The position numbers were made by a program, and so were the translations under genes. DNA of 64,000 nt from Bacteroidales bacterium (GTDB lineage Bacteria; Bacteroidota; Bacteroidia; Bacteroidales; P3), in NCBI GenBank assembly GCA_017618625.1, contig JAFZTV010000030.1, forward strand, positions 8,005-72,004. The letters run 5' to 3'. Positions 9,097 to 15,403 of this stretch are shown here, piece by piece (position 1 is the stretch's first letter; each line of letters opens with the position of its first letter). The notes beneath the pieces are model-generated. The model saw only the letters and a program-made list of their open reading frames with translations, was not told where the DNA came from and made no database searches.

Positions 9097-11748
9097 CTAG
9101 AGCTCATTGGAGAGGATAGTGATGAAACTTTCAGCGGCAGGCTCGATGAGGGCGTCGGGGAAGTCGTATGCGGGATGATGAAGTTCTGGACAGAGGTCGC
9201 CGGCACCGATGCCGAAAAAAGCACCACGGTAGCGGAGTAGGTAATTGGCAAAATCTTCGGACCAACGGAAGGGCTTTTGGATGCGCCGCACGGTGAAACC
9301 AGCAGAGGAAAGGGACTTTTCGAGGATGTCGGTGAGCTGGGCATCATTCTCGGTGGCCATGAATGGGTCACACACTGCGACGGCCATCTGCAATCCATAT
9401 TTCGTGCAGACGTCGGACACTATAGCATCGGCGTCGGCACGCAGGGAGTCCATGCGTTTGTTTGTGAAGGCCCGCAGAGTGAACATAACCTCGGCCGAAC
9501 CAGCGGAAGTACCGTAGGCCTCCTCGCCGAGACGCACACAGATGAGGGTGCTCTGGGAGAAGGAATACAGAGGGTCGGGCTGGACAGTCTGGCTGGGCTG
9601 GCTGTTTTTGTCGTTCTTGGTGTTATGGTTTTTATTGCGCCAAGGAGTCAGAATGCTCGGTATGATAGAAAAACTCTGGGGGTTCGGCGCTTCAGGGGTG
9701 ACGGTGCTATCGGCACTACAATTCAACCGCTCAAAACGCTCGATAATCTCGGACACGGCTTTGCCAGGGTTCAAGCCCTTCTCGGGTGTGGAGGCATGGG
9801 TCTGGCGGCCAGCTATGGTGTATTTCACGCCAACGGAAGCAGCCGCGAAAGTGTCGCCACTCAAGAGTACTTCGCCCAATGGAACCCCGGGGATGTTGTG
9901 CAAGCCGTAAACGGCACGTATGTCGTAGCGCTGCATAATGCCGCTGTCGAGTATCTTCTGAGAGCCGCAACCCGTCTCCTCCTCTGGCTGGAAGATGAGC
10001 ATAATATTCTTGTCAGCGTAGAGGGAAGGCGCCTGGGCAATCATATCGGCGACCCTAAGCATTATGGCTGTGTGACCATCGTGCCCACACTTGTGAGAAA
10101 CGCCTCTCACGGTGGAGCAGTATGGAAGCTCTGATGTTGAAAGAGATGGGCTGTCGTGATTCTCGGTCTCGCCATTGACAACTTGAAACTCGGAAGTAGA
10201 GACCGTTCCCTCATCGATGGGCAGGGCATCGGTGTCGGCACGCAGAGCTATGGTAGGGAAATCAGGATTATCGCCGAAGACTGCCACAACACCGTAGCCG
10301 CTGACACGGCCAAAGAACTCTGATGGAGTGTCGGATGACTCGCCAGAAGAGCCCGCATCGCCCACATAGGAGAACACGGTGCAGTCGGGATAGGCATTAA
10401 GGCAGCCAACAATCATATCATGGGCGAACACCTCGTTGCCCGAAAGACCGGGATGGGCGTGGAGTTCGTGCCGCACATGGCAGCGTACCAGGTCTTTGAA
10501 TACGCGTCCACGTTCCTCGAAATTCTTGAAGCTATCATAACTAGCTGCAGCAGGAGAAAGCAGGCACACCTTGCCGACCTCGGTCACCTTGAAACACCAC
10601 TCAACAATCTTGCCATAGTCGTTCTCCTTTATAATATTCCTCTCACCACCAACCGGCCACCGAGTACAGGCCAAATCATACATACGCTCACCCGCCGCAC
10701 CTACGAAGGCGATGTTTCTCACCTCGCTATTGGCCAGAAAATCTATCAAGCCGGCGTAGTCTATTCCACGGTCGAAACCACCAAGAATTAGAGTTTGCAC
10801 GTCACCGACGGCCTTAACCGCCGCCTCGCAGGCTGCCGGAATAGTAGAGATGGAGTCGTTATAGAAACGAATTCCCTTGTATGCACCAACATATTCAAGC
10901 CTGTGTTCCAAGCCCTTGAACTCGGTCACCGCCCGTTTGAACACCTCGCCATCTATGCAGTACAACTGCGCCACATGGGCAACAGCCTCAATGTTGCTAC
11001 GGTTGTGTTCGCCTGGCAGACGACTTGACACACTGCCGTAAACAGGCTGGTCGTCAGCCGAATAGGATTCAACCTGAGAACGGAACTGCTCTTGGCAGGA
11101 GTCGACCAAAGAGGATAGCTCGGCGTTGTCTTTACAATATATAAAGGTGTCGCCGTCACACTGGCGCAAGCCAATCTGCATCTTGGCCATCTTGTAGCCG
11201 TCATAGCTCTCATAGTGGTCCAGATGCTCCTGAAAGAGATTGAGCAGAACTCCGATATGCGGACCACGGTGTATGTTCTCCAACTGATGGCACGACAACT
11301 CAGCCACAACTATGGTTGAGATGTCCATCTGCTCGACGAGTTCAAAAAGCGGTATGCCTATGTTGCCGCCCAACAGCACATTGTAGCCAGCGGCCTTGAA
11401 CACATTGTATATTAACGAGGTCGTGGTGCTCTTTCCTTTGGTGCCGGTGACACCGATTACCTGGTCGCCATAAACCCGCAGGAAGACGTCGGTCATGGAA
11501 GTCACCTCGGTCTTGCGGCACAAGTCACTCAGCACACTCATAGGAACGCCAGGGGACTTCACCACCATATCGTAATTATTATCAGTGAGAGCCGCACGAA
11601 TCGCCTCGTTGTTCTCGGCTGTAGCAACCTCGGCACAGACTCCCAGCTTCTCAAGCAGAGCCAGCGCCGACTTGCCCTCACGCCCCAAACCGGCAATCAA
11701 AACCCTTTTGCCTTCGAAAATACGCCGTATATCCGCTTCTAGATACAC
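9097..11748 (-). CDS. MurD-like Mur ligase fused to M20 amidohydrolase
   Basis: A single 883-residue frame carries two complete enzymes. Residues 1-421 are a MurD-type ligase joining glutamate to UDP-MurNAc-L-Ala: Rossmann-like GLGREGKS (20-27), P-loop GTKGKST (102-108), central block ELSCHQLENI, and the MurD C-terminal signature SPAAASYDSFKNFEERG (399-415). Residues 422-883 are an M20 metallopeptidase/amidohydrolase with all its metal ligands: CGHDGH (554-559), the Glu pair 589-590, His651 and His858. There is no linker; RCHVRHELHAHPGLSG starts the M20 domain directly. The GLGREG start resembles MurD2, the L-Glu-adding ligase known to work with MurL, and a murL-like gene lies 171 bases upstream. 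An insertion rich in Pro, Ser and Asn (about 685-730) interrupts the M20 part. The substrate of the M20 domain is unknown. Confidence 0.88.
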   Translation of the reverse strand: MYLEADIRRIFEGKRVLIAGLGREGKSALALLEKLGVCAEVATAENNEAIRAALTDNNYDMVVKSPGVPMSVLSDLCRKTEVTSMTDVFLRVYGDQVIGVTGTKGKSTTTSLIYNVFKAAGYNVLLGGNIGIPLFELVEQMDISTIVVAELSCHQLENIHRGPHIGVLLNLFQEHLDHYESYDGYKMAKMQIGLRQCDGDTFIYCKDNAELSSLVDSCQEQFRSQVESYSADDQPVYGSVSSRLPGEHNRSNIEAVAHVAQLYCIDGEVFKRAVTEFKGLEHRLEYVGAYKGIRFYNDSISTIPAACEAAVKAVGDVQTLILGGFDRGIDYAGLIDFLANSEVRNIAFVGAAGERMYDLACTRWPVGGERNIIKENDYGKIVEWCFKVTEVGKVCLLSPAAASYDSFKNFEERGRVFKDLVRCHVRHELHAHPGLSGNEVFAHDMIVGCLNAYPDCTVFSYVGDAGSSGESSDTPSEFFGRVSGYGVVAVFGDNPDFPTIALRADTDALPIDEGTVSTSEFQVVNGETENHDSPSLSTSELPYCSTVRGVSHKCGHDGHTAIMLRVADMIAQAPSLYADKNIMLIFQPEEETGCGSQKILDSGIMQRYDIRAVYGLHNIPGVPLGEVLLSGDTFAAASVGVKYTIAGRQTHASTPEKGLNPGKAVSEIIERFERLNCSADSTVTPEAPNPQSFSIIPSILTPWRNKNHNTKNDKNSQPSQTVQPDPLYSFSQSTLICVRLGEEAYGTSAGSAEVMFTLRAFTNKRMDSLRADADAIVSDVCTKYGLQMAVAVCDPFMATENDAQLTDILEKSLSSAGFTVRRIQKPFRWSEDFANYLLRYRGAFFGIGAGDLCPELHHPAYDFPDALIEPAAESFITILSNEL

Positions 11749-11753
11749 CCTTT

Positions 11754-11801
11754 GAGTTTGCTTGAATGAGTTATTGTTTAGTGAGTTAGCGATTAACTTT
11801 G
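11754..11801. repeat. Octamer-periodic leader of the murD-M20 gene
   Basis: Six 8-base steps in register (GAGTTTGC, TTGAATGA, GTTATTGT, TTAGTGAG, TTAGCGAT, TAACTTTG). Words such as GTTATTGT and TTAGTGAG are shared with the octamer arrays elsewhere. It lies in the 5' leader, between the -7 box and the ATG. Confidence 0.45.
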
Positions 11802-11863
11802 TTTATATTCCGTTGCCTTTGTAAGCGACGTGGAAAACCATACGCTCACTTAGCAACAAATTG

Positions 11864-11871
11864 CAAAAATA
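11864..11871 (-). promoter_or_regulatory. -7 box for the murD-M20 gene
   Basis: The minus strand reads TATTTTTG (consensus TAnnTTTG), 115 bases upstream of the fusion gene ATG and downstream of the murL stop. The fusion can thus be transcribed on its own as well as by read-through from murL. Confidence 0.55.
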
Positions 11872-11919
11872 CGATTTTTTGCCAAAACATATACCTTAAA
11901 CGTAGCCTAGGCTGAAAAG

Positions 11920-13275
11920 TTACGCTATGGAAGCTTTAAGTATTCCTAGTTCTGCGGCCGACAAGTTGTGGTCGTTGAAAAGGGTTTCGGTGCTTACCAT
12001 TTCGCCACTGTAATCGAAAGCTCTCAGTAGAGCAGGCATGTGGGAGTCGGTATACCAGCGGCGTTTGGCCATCATGAGGGCTGTATTGACTTCGCTGATA
12101 GTGCCGACACACTCGAAAGGCTTGCTTTCGGTGTGGCCAGTCAGCTCCTCGAAATAGCCGCGAAGCTCGCAGTCGTCGAGCATCGACTTGCCGAATATGG
12201 CGTTCAGACGGTCAGGCTCGATGAACGGCGAAAGAATGATGTATGCAAAAAGGCACTTGGCGCATCTGCCGCACCAGATGTCCTGCTTGCTGCCGGCATT
12301 GCAGCTCTTAAACACATCGAAATACTTGTCGTGACGGGAGAAAAGCATGGCAATCTGCAACTCGCTAAGCGGTCGCAGGAAGCTGAAATAGTTCACATTG
12401 GCCGTCACATATTTCGCCACATACGTACGGAAATCGTTCTCAAACTCAAGACTTTTTGAATACTGATGGTTCACTGTACTGCCTGCCACCGTTGATTCGT
12501 TGGCACTATTCTCGTTGGACAAGGCAACGTTACGTACCCCTGCCAGCGTCGCCGCCAACAGCGTATAAAAGGCCAGCATGGCCGAGAAGGGAGTGTGCCC
12601 GTTCAGACAGCCCTTGGCATTCAGGCCAAGCAGTGTTGAATCGATACGACGATTGATGATAAGAGTCTCCTCCGGCGAGAAACCGCCTCGCTCGGCACAC
12701 ATAGTCGTAGCTCCGCGAGGGTTCATTATCAACGGCCTAACACCTTGGTTGCGTAGAAGTTCGAGCGTTACCACCGAGTCTTTGCCGCCTCCGATGGGAA
12801 CGAGATAATTGGTAGCCTGATTGAATGACTTCATGGTAGATGGAGTATTTGCATCTGGATTATTGCACTCACATTCGATAGTCATGAAGTCATCTATCGT
12901 GGCACGGATGCCGTTGGTGTAAAAGAACTCGCCCAAGCCGTTGAAGTAAATCTTCTTCCAGAATCGGACCTGCTCGGAATCGAGGCTATGGGGCAGCACC
13001 CTTACCACTTTGGGGCATACGCACTTCCAATAACTCACCAACTCTATCATGCCGATATTGAAAACCAGCGAATCCATCAGCTCTTTCGGCTGATCGAAAT
13101 TCAAAAAAGGTCTATGCGGAATCGAGGCCGTCGGATGAAACACAATCTTATCGTTCAGCCGAAACGAAAACTCCATCCGAAGTCCCTCGGCATCGACGGT
13201 ATACGAGTAGTTCTCGTACACCATCTCGCCGAAAGTCATCCGGTATGTGTTATATTTTTTTTGATTGCTAACCAC
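11920..13275 (-). CDS. murL: UDP-MurNAc-L-Ala-L-Glu epimerase (MurL) candidate
   Basis: A 451-residue cytoplasmic protein with the PP-loop-like motif PIGGGKDS (160-167) and a late cysteine cluster CGRCAKC (335-341). From memory, this combination and length match MurL. MurL adenylates the terminal L-glutamate of UDP-MurNAc-L-Ala-L-Glu and inverts it to D-glutamate, giving AMP and pyrophosphate. It works after MurD2, and the adjacent MurD-like domain supports that reading. The start is GTG 13275 (MVSNQKK); an ATG at 13239 would remove only 12 residues. It follows the coiled-coil lipoprotein gene by 30 bases and probably shares its transcript. The alternative is another PP-loop ATPase of unknown function. 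The family call rests on motif, size and context, with no alignment. Confidence 0.75.
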   Translation of the reverse strand: MVSNQKKYNTYRMTFGEMVYENYSYTVDAEGLRMEFSFRLNDKIVFHPTASIPHRPFLNFDQPKELMDSLVFNIGMIELVSYWKCVCPKVVRVLPHSLDSEQVRFWKKIYFNGLGEFFYTNGIRATIDDFMTIECECNNPDANTPSTMKSFNQATNYLVPIGGGKDSVVTLELLRNQGVRPLIMNPRGATTMCAERGGFSPEETLIINRRIDSTLLGLNAKGCLNGHTPFSAMLAFYTLLAATLAGVRNVALSNENSANESTVAGSTVNHQYSKSLEFENDFRTYVAKYVTANVNYFSFLRPLSELQIAMLFSRHDKYFDVFKSCNAGSKQDIWCGRCAKCLFAYIILSPFIEPDRLNAIFGKSMLDDCELRGYFEELTGHTESKPFECVGTISEVNTALMMAKRRWYTDSHMPALLRAFDYSGEMVSTETLFNDHNLSAAELGILKASIA

Positions 13276-13305: not shown

Positions 13306-15369
13306 CTATTTCAAAGTAAAGCTCACCTTGCCGATTTCGTTACCGTTGGCATACAGGGTGACCCAGTAGAGGCCAGGCTCCATGACCACACTGTCGAGTT
13401 TGCGCCATACGATGCTCACCTTGCGGGAGCCGCCCCAGAACTCGATGTCCTGCTTTGCGGTGTATTGAATTTCGGTGTCGCCGCTCTTGAAGGTGTCGGA
13501 ATTGGCGCCCTCGTTGCTCACCAGACGGTTCTTGGAGTTGGAGATGCGAGCGTATATCGTGATGGTGCCAGGGTCAACCACATAGTTGTCAAGGATGGTA
13601 GCGTCGATTTTTACGAGCTTCACGTCACTGCCTTTTGAGGCCTCTTTCACCACGGTGCCGCTGATGCTCTTGCCGGGAGTAGCCACCACGTCGGTGGTGA
13701 CGAGTATGCTGGCTTTCTCAAGTTTCTGACGGATTTTATCGCTCTGGCTGTCAAGTTTGCGCAGTTCGCTGTTTTCGGCTTTGAGCTGCCCGTTCTCGGC
13801 TTTGAGCTGCTCGTTTTCGGCACGCAGACGTTCGATTTCGGCGACATAGCTGTCACACAGCTTCTGCAGCTCGGAAAGTTTCTGGTTGACATTGGATGCC
13901 GAAGGAGCGGAAGCGCTGGCTTGAACGGATACGTTGGCGTTGGCCGAAGCACTAGCCTTAGCGTCAGCCGCCTCTTTCAGAGCGGCCTCGGTCCTGTTGT
14001 TGGCAGCGGTGAGGTCGGCCTGAGCCTTGGCGAGGACCGCTTCCTTCTCGTTCAGCTGCTTCTGCAGTTTTGCCAGGTCGGCCTTCTGGTTCTCAACCTG
14101 AGCCTGCAATGTGGCAATCTGCTGTTCATATTTTGCGTTGGCTGAGACGTTGGCCGAAGCCGAAGCAGCAACCGAAGCGTTGGCTTTAGCCAGGTCGGCG
14201 TCCTTCTTCGACAGGTCGCTCTGAGCGGCAGAAAGCTGTGCCTCAAGTTCTTTCACACGAACGTTAAGATTAGAGACGCTGGCTTCCAGCTGTGCGGATT
14301 TGGAGTTGCACTGGGAGAGCTGGGCTTCGAGTTGCTGGTTGGCTGACACATTGGCCGAGGCCGAGACGCTGGCGGAAGACTCGAGTTTCGACACCTTCTC
14401 GTTGCACTGGGAGAGCTGGGCTTCAAGCTGAGCCTTGGACTTCTCGAGCTGAGAAAGCTGAGCGTTGAGCTGCTTCACCTGACCTTCGAGCTGCACGTTG
14501 GCAGAAGCGGAAGCGGAGGCAGAGGCCTGCTGGCTGTTGAGGACCTTCATCTGGTCGTTCAATGCGGCGATGTCTGACTCGAGTTTCGTTATCTTGGCGC
14601 TCAACTGTGCGTTCTTGGTGTTCAGTTCAGCGTTCTGCTTGGAGAGACTTTCGTTCTGTTTTGTGAGAGCCGAGACATTGGCTGAGACATCGGCTTTTGC
14701 CGAGCCCGAAGCCTTGAGCTCGCCATTCAAGCCCTCAATACGAGTGTTGAGAGAAGAGATCTGGCCGTTAAGGTTTGCAATAACGCCCTCCTGCTGAGAT
14801 ACTTGCTTCTGGAGTTTCTCTACCTGGGCCTTGCACTGAGCCTCACTGGCGGAAGCGTTGGCAGAAACGGCGGCAGAAGCTGAAGCGGACGCCGAGGCAT
14901 TATTCTTCAACTGGGCAATCTCTTTCTCCTGAGCGTCGAGACGGCGCTGGAGTTCTTTTATGACCGACTCTTTAGAGCGCAACTCAGCCTCCTGTTTGCT
15001 GCAATCGGCCGAGACCGAAGCGGAGGCAGAGACGTTTCCTCCAGCAGTAGCCTGGGCACTCACACTGGACGATTGTCTGGACGACTTCTGACTGCTCCTC
15101 GCACGGCGCAGCTGGGCAAGGAGGTCGCGAATCTCGGCAGCCTGGGCATTGATGGTGCTGTCTTTCTGCGTCATCTGACCGTCGAATTCCTGGTTGTCAG
15201 CCTTCACTTTTGCATACTGTTCCATTATGCTGTCGTAACGCTCCTGCATGGCGATAAGTTCCTTTTCGGACACTTTCACACCGCTTTTGTCACAGGACAC
15301 CGTCGATAACATCGTAGCCACGGTCACTGCCGCAACTATCAAAAACCGCTTACTGTAATTCATTTTCAT
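13306..15369 (-). CDS. Coiled-coil lipoprotein with Ala/Ser/Asn-rich spacers
   Basis: No known family is recognised. A lipoprotein signal (start MKMNYSKRF at 15369; lipobox before CDKSG) anchors a protein of about 687 residues. From about residue 20 to 550 it alternates heptad-like helical stretches rich in Gln, Leu, Lys and Glu with seven or eight uncharged spacers built from ASASA, NVSA and SVSA words, spaced 50-80 residues apart. The last ~130 residues are a globular, beta-rich domain with no coiled coil (DPGTITIYARISNSKN and MEPGLYWVTLYANGNEIGK). Such a layout suits a periplasmic rod or tether with a head domain. The TATTTTTG box at 15404-15411 drives it, and murL follows 30 bases downstream, hinting at an envelope role. 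Confidence 0.75.
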   Translation of the reverse strand: MKMNYSKRFLIVAAVTVATMLSTVSCDKSGVKVSEKELIAMQERYDSIMEQYAKVKADNQEFDGQMTQKDSTINAQAAEIRDLLAQLRRARSSQKSSRQSSSVSAQATAGGNVSASASVSADCSKQEAELRSKESVIKELQRRLDAQEKEIAQLKNNASASASASAAVSANASASEAQCKAQVEKLQKQVSQQEGVIANLNGQISSLNTRIEGLNGELKASGSAKADVSANVSALTKQNESLSKQNAELNTKNAQLSAKITKLESDIAALNDQMKVLNSQQASASASASANVQLEGQVKQLNAQLSQLEKSKAQLEAQLSQCNEKVSKLESSASVSASANVSANQQLEAQLSQCNSKSAQLEASVSNLNVRVKELEAQLSAAQSDLSKKDADLAKANASVAASASANVSANAKYEQQIATLQAQVENQKADLAKLQKQLNEKEAVLAKAQADLTAANNRTEAALKEAADAKASASANANVSVQASASAPSASNVNQKLSELQKLCDSYVAEIERLRAENEQLKAENGQLKAENSELRKLDSQSDKIRQKLEKASILVTTDVVATPGKSISGTVVKEASKGSDVKLVKIDATILDNYVVDPGTITIYARISNSKNRLVSNEGANSDTFKSGDTEIQYTAKQDIEFWGGSRKVSIVWRKLDSVVMEPGLYWVTLYANGNEIGKVSFTLK

Positions 15370-15403
15370 GTATCTTAATGTTTTGTTTGTTTCCAAATAG
15401 GCT

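Follow-up and report, generated by a model that had tools for sequence, protein, structure and literature searches.

The window examined here, 64,000 nucleotides from a Bacteroidales bacterium (GenBank assembly GCA_017618625.1, contig JAFZTV010000030.1, positions 8,005 to 72,004 of the forward strand), very probably encodes a MurD2/MurL-type route to the D-glutamate of peptidoglycan. Two open reading frames (ORFs) on the minus strand, with 171 bases between them, make up the locus. The upstream ORF (11920-13275, 451 amino acids) is a full-length homologue of MurL; the downstream one (9097-11748, 883 amino acids) fuses a MurD2-type ligase to an M20 amidohydrolase domain. Ordinary L-glutamate would be attached first and epimerised to D-glutamate after attachment, and in this lineage the route would replace both glutamate racemase and the canonical MurD of the division (dcw) cluster; because of this double replacement it is probably obligate. 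The homology, the specificity residues, the gene fusions, the exclusion of murI and the absence of a full-length canonical MurD from close relatives are read directly from sequence.

In Xanthomonas, MurD2 adds L-glutamate and MurL epimerises it, and both reactions have been published for the Xanthomonas enzymes (PMC8788868; PMC5808125). A preliminary description of the window had proposed the same route here, with the ligase fused to an M20 domain and no murI in the window. The MurL profile match, the ligase residues and the exclusion of murI in relatives all support it.

Genome-wide questions were answered from relatives, not from the window's source genome. The closest set comprises 24 loci in named records (19 Bacteroidales/Bacteroidetes, three Candidatus Colimorpha, one Delongbacteria, one Clostridium) with MurL 43-85% identical to that of the window. 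The nearest relative with an available genome, G001, has the 85% identical MurL, and 295 genomes of unstated completeness were drawn from its order. Database names for these proteins, as shown, are hypothetical or D-glutamate ligase.

The MurL homologue and the ligase

Comparison with the characterised MurL family was made through the NF041275 profile, which matches the ORF at 270.2 bits (E 2.5e-80; residues 29-409 on model positions 19-401 of 447). No other NCBIfam model matches at E up to 0.1. The protein carries the PP-loop motif PIGGGKDS (residues 160-167; 12775..12798, minus strand) and the motif CGRCAKC (residues 335-341), both as first described. In an alignment of 29 homologues P160 and G162-S167 are invariant, as are four cysteines, C325, C335, C338 and C341 (12253..12303, minus strand), a cluster that we take to resemble the zinc site of QueC. 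Domains PF26298 and PF26299 are present in the 120 best MurL homologues listed. An AlphaFold2 model (pLDDT 90.4) has a QueC/QatC-like fold, and the nearest solved structures, QatC and QueC, are alike at the level of fold only (9% and 14% identity). A sequence search of solved structures with the single protein gave no convincing match, and a MurL profile matched PP-loop segments only (E 0.008 or weaker). MurL has been described as without known conserved domains (PMC5808125). The model predicts a QueC/QatC-like PP-loop enzyme, which is consistent with the published AMP-forming epimerisation; the evidence on MurL chemistry in the window consists of this fold and the PP-loop motif. The activity of the window's proteins and the chemical steps within MurL, like the role of M20, are inferred.

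Two points about MurL weigh against this assignment. The NF041275 cut-off of 700 bits, curated for Xanthomonadales, is reached neither in the window (270.2) nor in any of the 295 order genomes, so the protein is best classed as homologous to MurL but not as a member of the Xanthomonadales equivalog. According to PMC5808125, cyanobacteria, a fungus and an amoeba also have MurL orthologues of low similarity, and homology to MurL alone therefore does not settle function. Together with a weak Pfam match to DUF6395 and the QatC and QueC structures, the low score could be taken to mean that the 451-residue protein is some other QueC-like or PP-loop enzyme, for QatC-type defence or nucleoside or tRNA modification, lying beside MurD by accident. 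This is very improbable. The likeness to QatC and QueC is confined to fold, MurL-MurD fusions recur, MurL genomes lack a clear murI, and all 20 adjoining MurDs examined have the switched specificity residues. Identity to QueC, QatC and Cap9 is 9-19% over the aligned parts, and MurL is linked to a Mur ligase, whereas those proteins occur among deazapurine or defence genes. A QatC or other defence identity was tried and dropped, since no PADLOC family matched at E up to 10; the better match to a different PP-loop family that the preliminary description had named as evidence against the route was found in neither NCBIfam nor PADLOC. In viral contigs, a search that left plasmid and phage records aside found no MurL relative (two pattern matches, neither confirmed).

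The ligase domain occupies residues 1-421 of the 883-residue protein (10486..11748, minus strand). It exceeds the murD model TIGR01087 (292.5 bits, cut-off 211.95, residues 15-422) and matches MurD structures (best E 3e-50); the N-terminal GLGREGKS noticed earlier begins at residue 20. Residues were placed by alignment to E. coli MurD from MG1655, with the Xanthomonas MurD2 equivalents taken from PMC8788868. E174 (11227..11229) corresponds to E. coli D182 and Xanthomonas MurD2 E197, and R327 (10768..10770) to K348 and R358, the two L-glutamate determinants; I300 (10849..10851) corresponds to E. coli K319 (all on the minus strand). Xanthomonas MurD2 has Glu for D182 and Arg for K348, reverting both gives use of D-glutamate, and E. 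coli MurD K319T accepts L-glutamate (PMC8788868). Glu, Arg and Ile stand at the D182, K348 and K319 positions in 20 of 20 ligases linked to MurL (one from the window and 19 from the 24 loci, of which L003, L011, L012, L016 and L024 were excluded as having no MurD or a cut or broken one), and Asp, Lys and Lys in 32 of 32 full-length dcw MurDs. K115, N138, E157, H183 and K198 are retained in both groups. Because this split follows the genomic partner cleanly, the window ligase likely uses L-glutamate. At two loci, labelled Delongbacteria and Clostridium (L020, L021), MurL adjoins a MurD with the Glu, Ile and Arg residues.

Other published results count against reading substrate from these residues. 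The D182E/K348R form of E. coli MurD did not take L-glutamate, and Streptococcus mutans MurD, which carries the Arg, has D-glutamate as its physiological substrate (PMC8788868). The residues are thus suggestive of L-glutamate use, not sufficient for it. They leave some room for an ordinary D-glutamate MurD, supplied by an unrecognised racemase or aminotransferase, with MurL doing something else; the ligase does exceed the canonical murD cut-off, and weak racemase and Dat-like matches occur in some MurL genomes. The joint presence of Glu, Ile and Arg in all 20 MurL-linked ligases and in none of the 32 dcw MurDs argues against this, as does the record of murI in relatives given below, and such an explanation has little chance of being right.

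Glutamate racemase and the canonical MurD

A tblastn search of the window with two MurI sequences, taken from genomes of its order, found no match (best E 1.4), so murI is missing there, as first described. Among the genomes of the 24 relatives murI exceeded its cut-off in none (one, the Delongbacteria, had a weak match), against 8 of 14 named control genomes. MurL was matched in 98 of the 295 order genomes, about a third (one by a weak fragment), and in none of the 14 controls. Conversely, murI was over cut-off in 178 of the 295, none of which also had MurL, and no MurL genome had murI at E<1e-25; 18 genomes had neither MurL nor murI at that threshold. The mutual exclusion has a Fisher p of 1e-59, uncorrected for kinship and with the weak MurL match, G076, set aside. 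In the nearest relative murI is not matched at any level, nor is Dat at E<1e-12. From these relatives we infer that the window's genome probably lacks murI. The preliminary description had also named, as evidence against the route, an active site fitting only D-glutamate combined with complete murI and murD elsewhere; the ligase carries Glu, Arg and Ile, and no murI passes its cut-off in the 24 relatives. Of 345 genomes drawn at the level of the phylum, G001 alone matched MurL strongly; two more matched at E about 1e-4.

Some observations on D-glutamate sources pull the other way. Weak racemase matches occur in 19 of the 98 MurL genomes (E 1.9e-5 to 3.2e-12). In two overlapping sets of 30 and 80 MurL genomes, none exceeded the cut-off of the D-amino acid aminotransferase model TIGR01121, a weak test of absence because only 1 of 14 controls exceeds that cut-off; the model is narrow, and weak Dat matches are common in MurL genomes. 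A full-length dcw MurD is kept in 43 of 80 MurL genomes, canonical at all three positions in the 25 examined, and elsewhere in the order the route may therefore coexist with a MurD using D-glutamate.

The nearest relatives, G001-G005, have no full-length dcw MurD; between mraY and ftsW they carry a short frame with its C-terminal domain only. The MurL-linked ligase of G001 is its sole MurD over the model cut-off; among eight dcw genes searched in the window the sole match was the MurD of the 9097-11748 ORF. In 80 dcw loci from 80 genomes, partly picked for the orphan state, 47 had the orphan domain, 32 a full MurD (25 MurL and 7 MurI genomes) and one neither. The orphan frames (for example L031:6270-6806, with 46 others among L031-L110) are open over 178-245 residues, the intact C-terminal domain being about 180; 46 of 47 lie between mraY and ftsW, and one is relocated (L036). 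A profile survey of 80 of the 98 MurL genomes found 29 orphans, 43 full MurDs, five with neither and three cut (G076, G119 and G131 were unclassified, their frames running into contig ends). On the racemase side, 179 genomes have murI at E<1e-25, and 80 of them, all MurL-free, were surveyed; 79 had a full MurD and one was cut by a contig end. A seeming orphan in a MurI genome, G286, was rejected, its frame ending at a contig end.

Several features speak against decay of the orphan gene: its frames are intact, its dN/dS is low and its length varies little in most database matches (96 of the 120 best from a short-protein search are 178-182 residues long). From 12 chosen pairs, dN/dS was 0.05 and 0.06 in the two with usable synonymous distances, the only ones relied on; synonymous distance was >1.8 or undefined in the other ten, four of which, near saturation, gave 0.04-0.13. 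The modelled orphan (pLDDT 80.9) matches structures of MurD (best E 9.4e-10). It has neither the ATP domain nor the UDP-MurNAc domain, and 10 of 47 orphans retain K348. In full-length dcw MurDs (for example L045:7160-8506 and L047:2792-4138) the column where orphans start holds Met in 24 of 25 MurL genomes and 7 of 7 MurI genomes, and Leu in E. coli; 39 of 47 orphans have Met there. An internal translation start at this Met is possible. Quick trees of neighbouring genes require 11 to 14 switches between a full MurD and the orphan, and well-supported branches account for 5 to 7 that cannot be avoided; full-length MurD may have been regained by transfer (L078, from G025, had too few genes for the main tree; two check trees had 75 and 73 rows). 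Fusion of the orphan to MraY or FtsW, indicated by open frames of 585-622 residues in four genomes, was rejected where DNA was read (G004, G005 and G007 have separate genes; G024 was not read). A scaffold beside MraY and FtsW is a guess at its role.

Retention of full-length MurD may depend on another source of D-glutamate. In 80 MurL genomes (G001, G014 and G280 replacing G076, G119 and G131), a weakly Dat-like class IV aminotransferase (E<1e-12, always under cut-off) occurs in 24 of 43 that have full MurD, in 3 of 32 orphan genomes and in 3 of the 5 that have neither. Enrichment in full over orphan has p 3e-5 (0.007 in smaller genomes, 0.010 in larger), uncorrected for kinship. A second D-glutamate source might thus keep canonical MurD in use. 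The class IV family also has other roles.

Gene fusions and the M20 domain

The M20 domain (residues 422-883; 9097..10485, minus strand) exceeds TIGR01891 (168.4 bits, cut-off 153.75), so that with the murD model both parts of the fusion reported earlier are over cut-off in one ORF. It matches the structure of YxeP (1ysj, E 1.5e-28), and the closest structures are generic acyl-amino-acid hydrolases. D505, C554, H556, E590, E591, H617 and H857, catalytic and metal residues of the family, are identical in 40 of 40 MurL-route domains, some of them near-duplicates (the partial P0134 was left out). For this reason the domain should be active, as an intact metallo-amidohydrolase. It shares its family and these conserved residues with YxeP, ILR1-like proteins and aminobenzoyl-glutamate hydrolase, and differs from them in being covalently joined to MurD2, or in two database proteins to MurL-MurD2.

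Among the 24 related loci, MurL and MurD form one ORF in four (L009, L010, L018, L023), MurD and M20 in three (L001, L002, L004), and M20 is the next, separate ORF in eight (L005-L010, L013, L022). The MurL-MurD fusion was also found in four further loci, chosen for their long frame. The 120 best database matches to the 883-residue protein, under length limits that favour fusions, comprise 90 MurL-MurD, 27 MurD-M20 (one partial), two MurL-MurD-M20 (P0148, 1247 residues; P0149, 1260 residues) and one MurD alone. An assembly accident is unlikely, since the 27 carry the same fusion as the window. Fusions thus exist for each neighbouring pair and, in two proteins, for all three, an argument that MurL, MurD and M20 act together; M20 probably works in the same module as the other two.

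A passenger amidohydrolase of unrelated substrate, fused when neighbouring genes ran together, is a serious alternative for this one domain, given somewhat less than an even chance. M20 linkage is limited to one clade among the loci placed in the tree, MurL-MurD loci outside it have no M20 within the flanks fetched, and the generic character of the closest structures points the same way. The 27 MurD-M20 and two triple fusions, the adjoining separate ORF in eight loci and the residues conserved in 40 domains speak for a working partner instead. Removal of glutamate from un-epimerised L-glutamate intermediates, or supply of glutamate, are guesses at its job.

A more extended proposal is speculative and rather unlikely as a whole. 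A ligase-epimerase-amidohydrolase module would attach L-glutamate, flip it and hydrolyse intermediates that retain the L form, so that only D-glutamate stems proceed. The displaced MurD would have been trimmed repeatedly, near the conserved internal Met, to a domain with a non-catalytic role alongside MraY and FtsW, and in ordinary Bacteroidales full-length MurD may already serve in that role.

Next upstream of MurL (13306-15396, minus strand) is a gene for a 696-residue protein with repeated Ala-Ser stretches (e.g., ASASASA) and coiled-coil-like segments.

Relation to known systems

The kind of system is already known. Like Xanthomonas oryzae with its MurD2 (XOO_1320) and MurL (XOO_1319), the window pairs a Glu and Arg ligase with a MurL homologue, and its relatives have no MurI over cut-off. 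It differs in lineage, Bacteroidales being absent from the taxa listed in the available text of PMC8788868 and PMC5808125, and in a MurL far under the Xanthomonadales cut-off. The ligase is fused to M20, and in relatives also to MurL, and the canonical dcw MurD of the nearest relatives is cut to an orphan C-terminal domain. The literature searched, from which subscription papers were mostly out of reach, yielded no mention of the route in this lineage, of the fusions or of what became of canonical MurD.

Formation of D-glutamate is an antibacterial target, and MurI is generally assumed to be its source. The MurD2/MurL route has been reviewed as confined to relatively few genera (PMC8788868), yet the sequences point to it in about a third of the genomes sampled here from one order. 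The predicted QueC-like fold suggests how MurL generates AMP, the fusions would bring a third enzyme into the route, and the orphan domain suggests a second, non-catalytic function of MurD.

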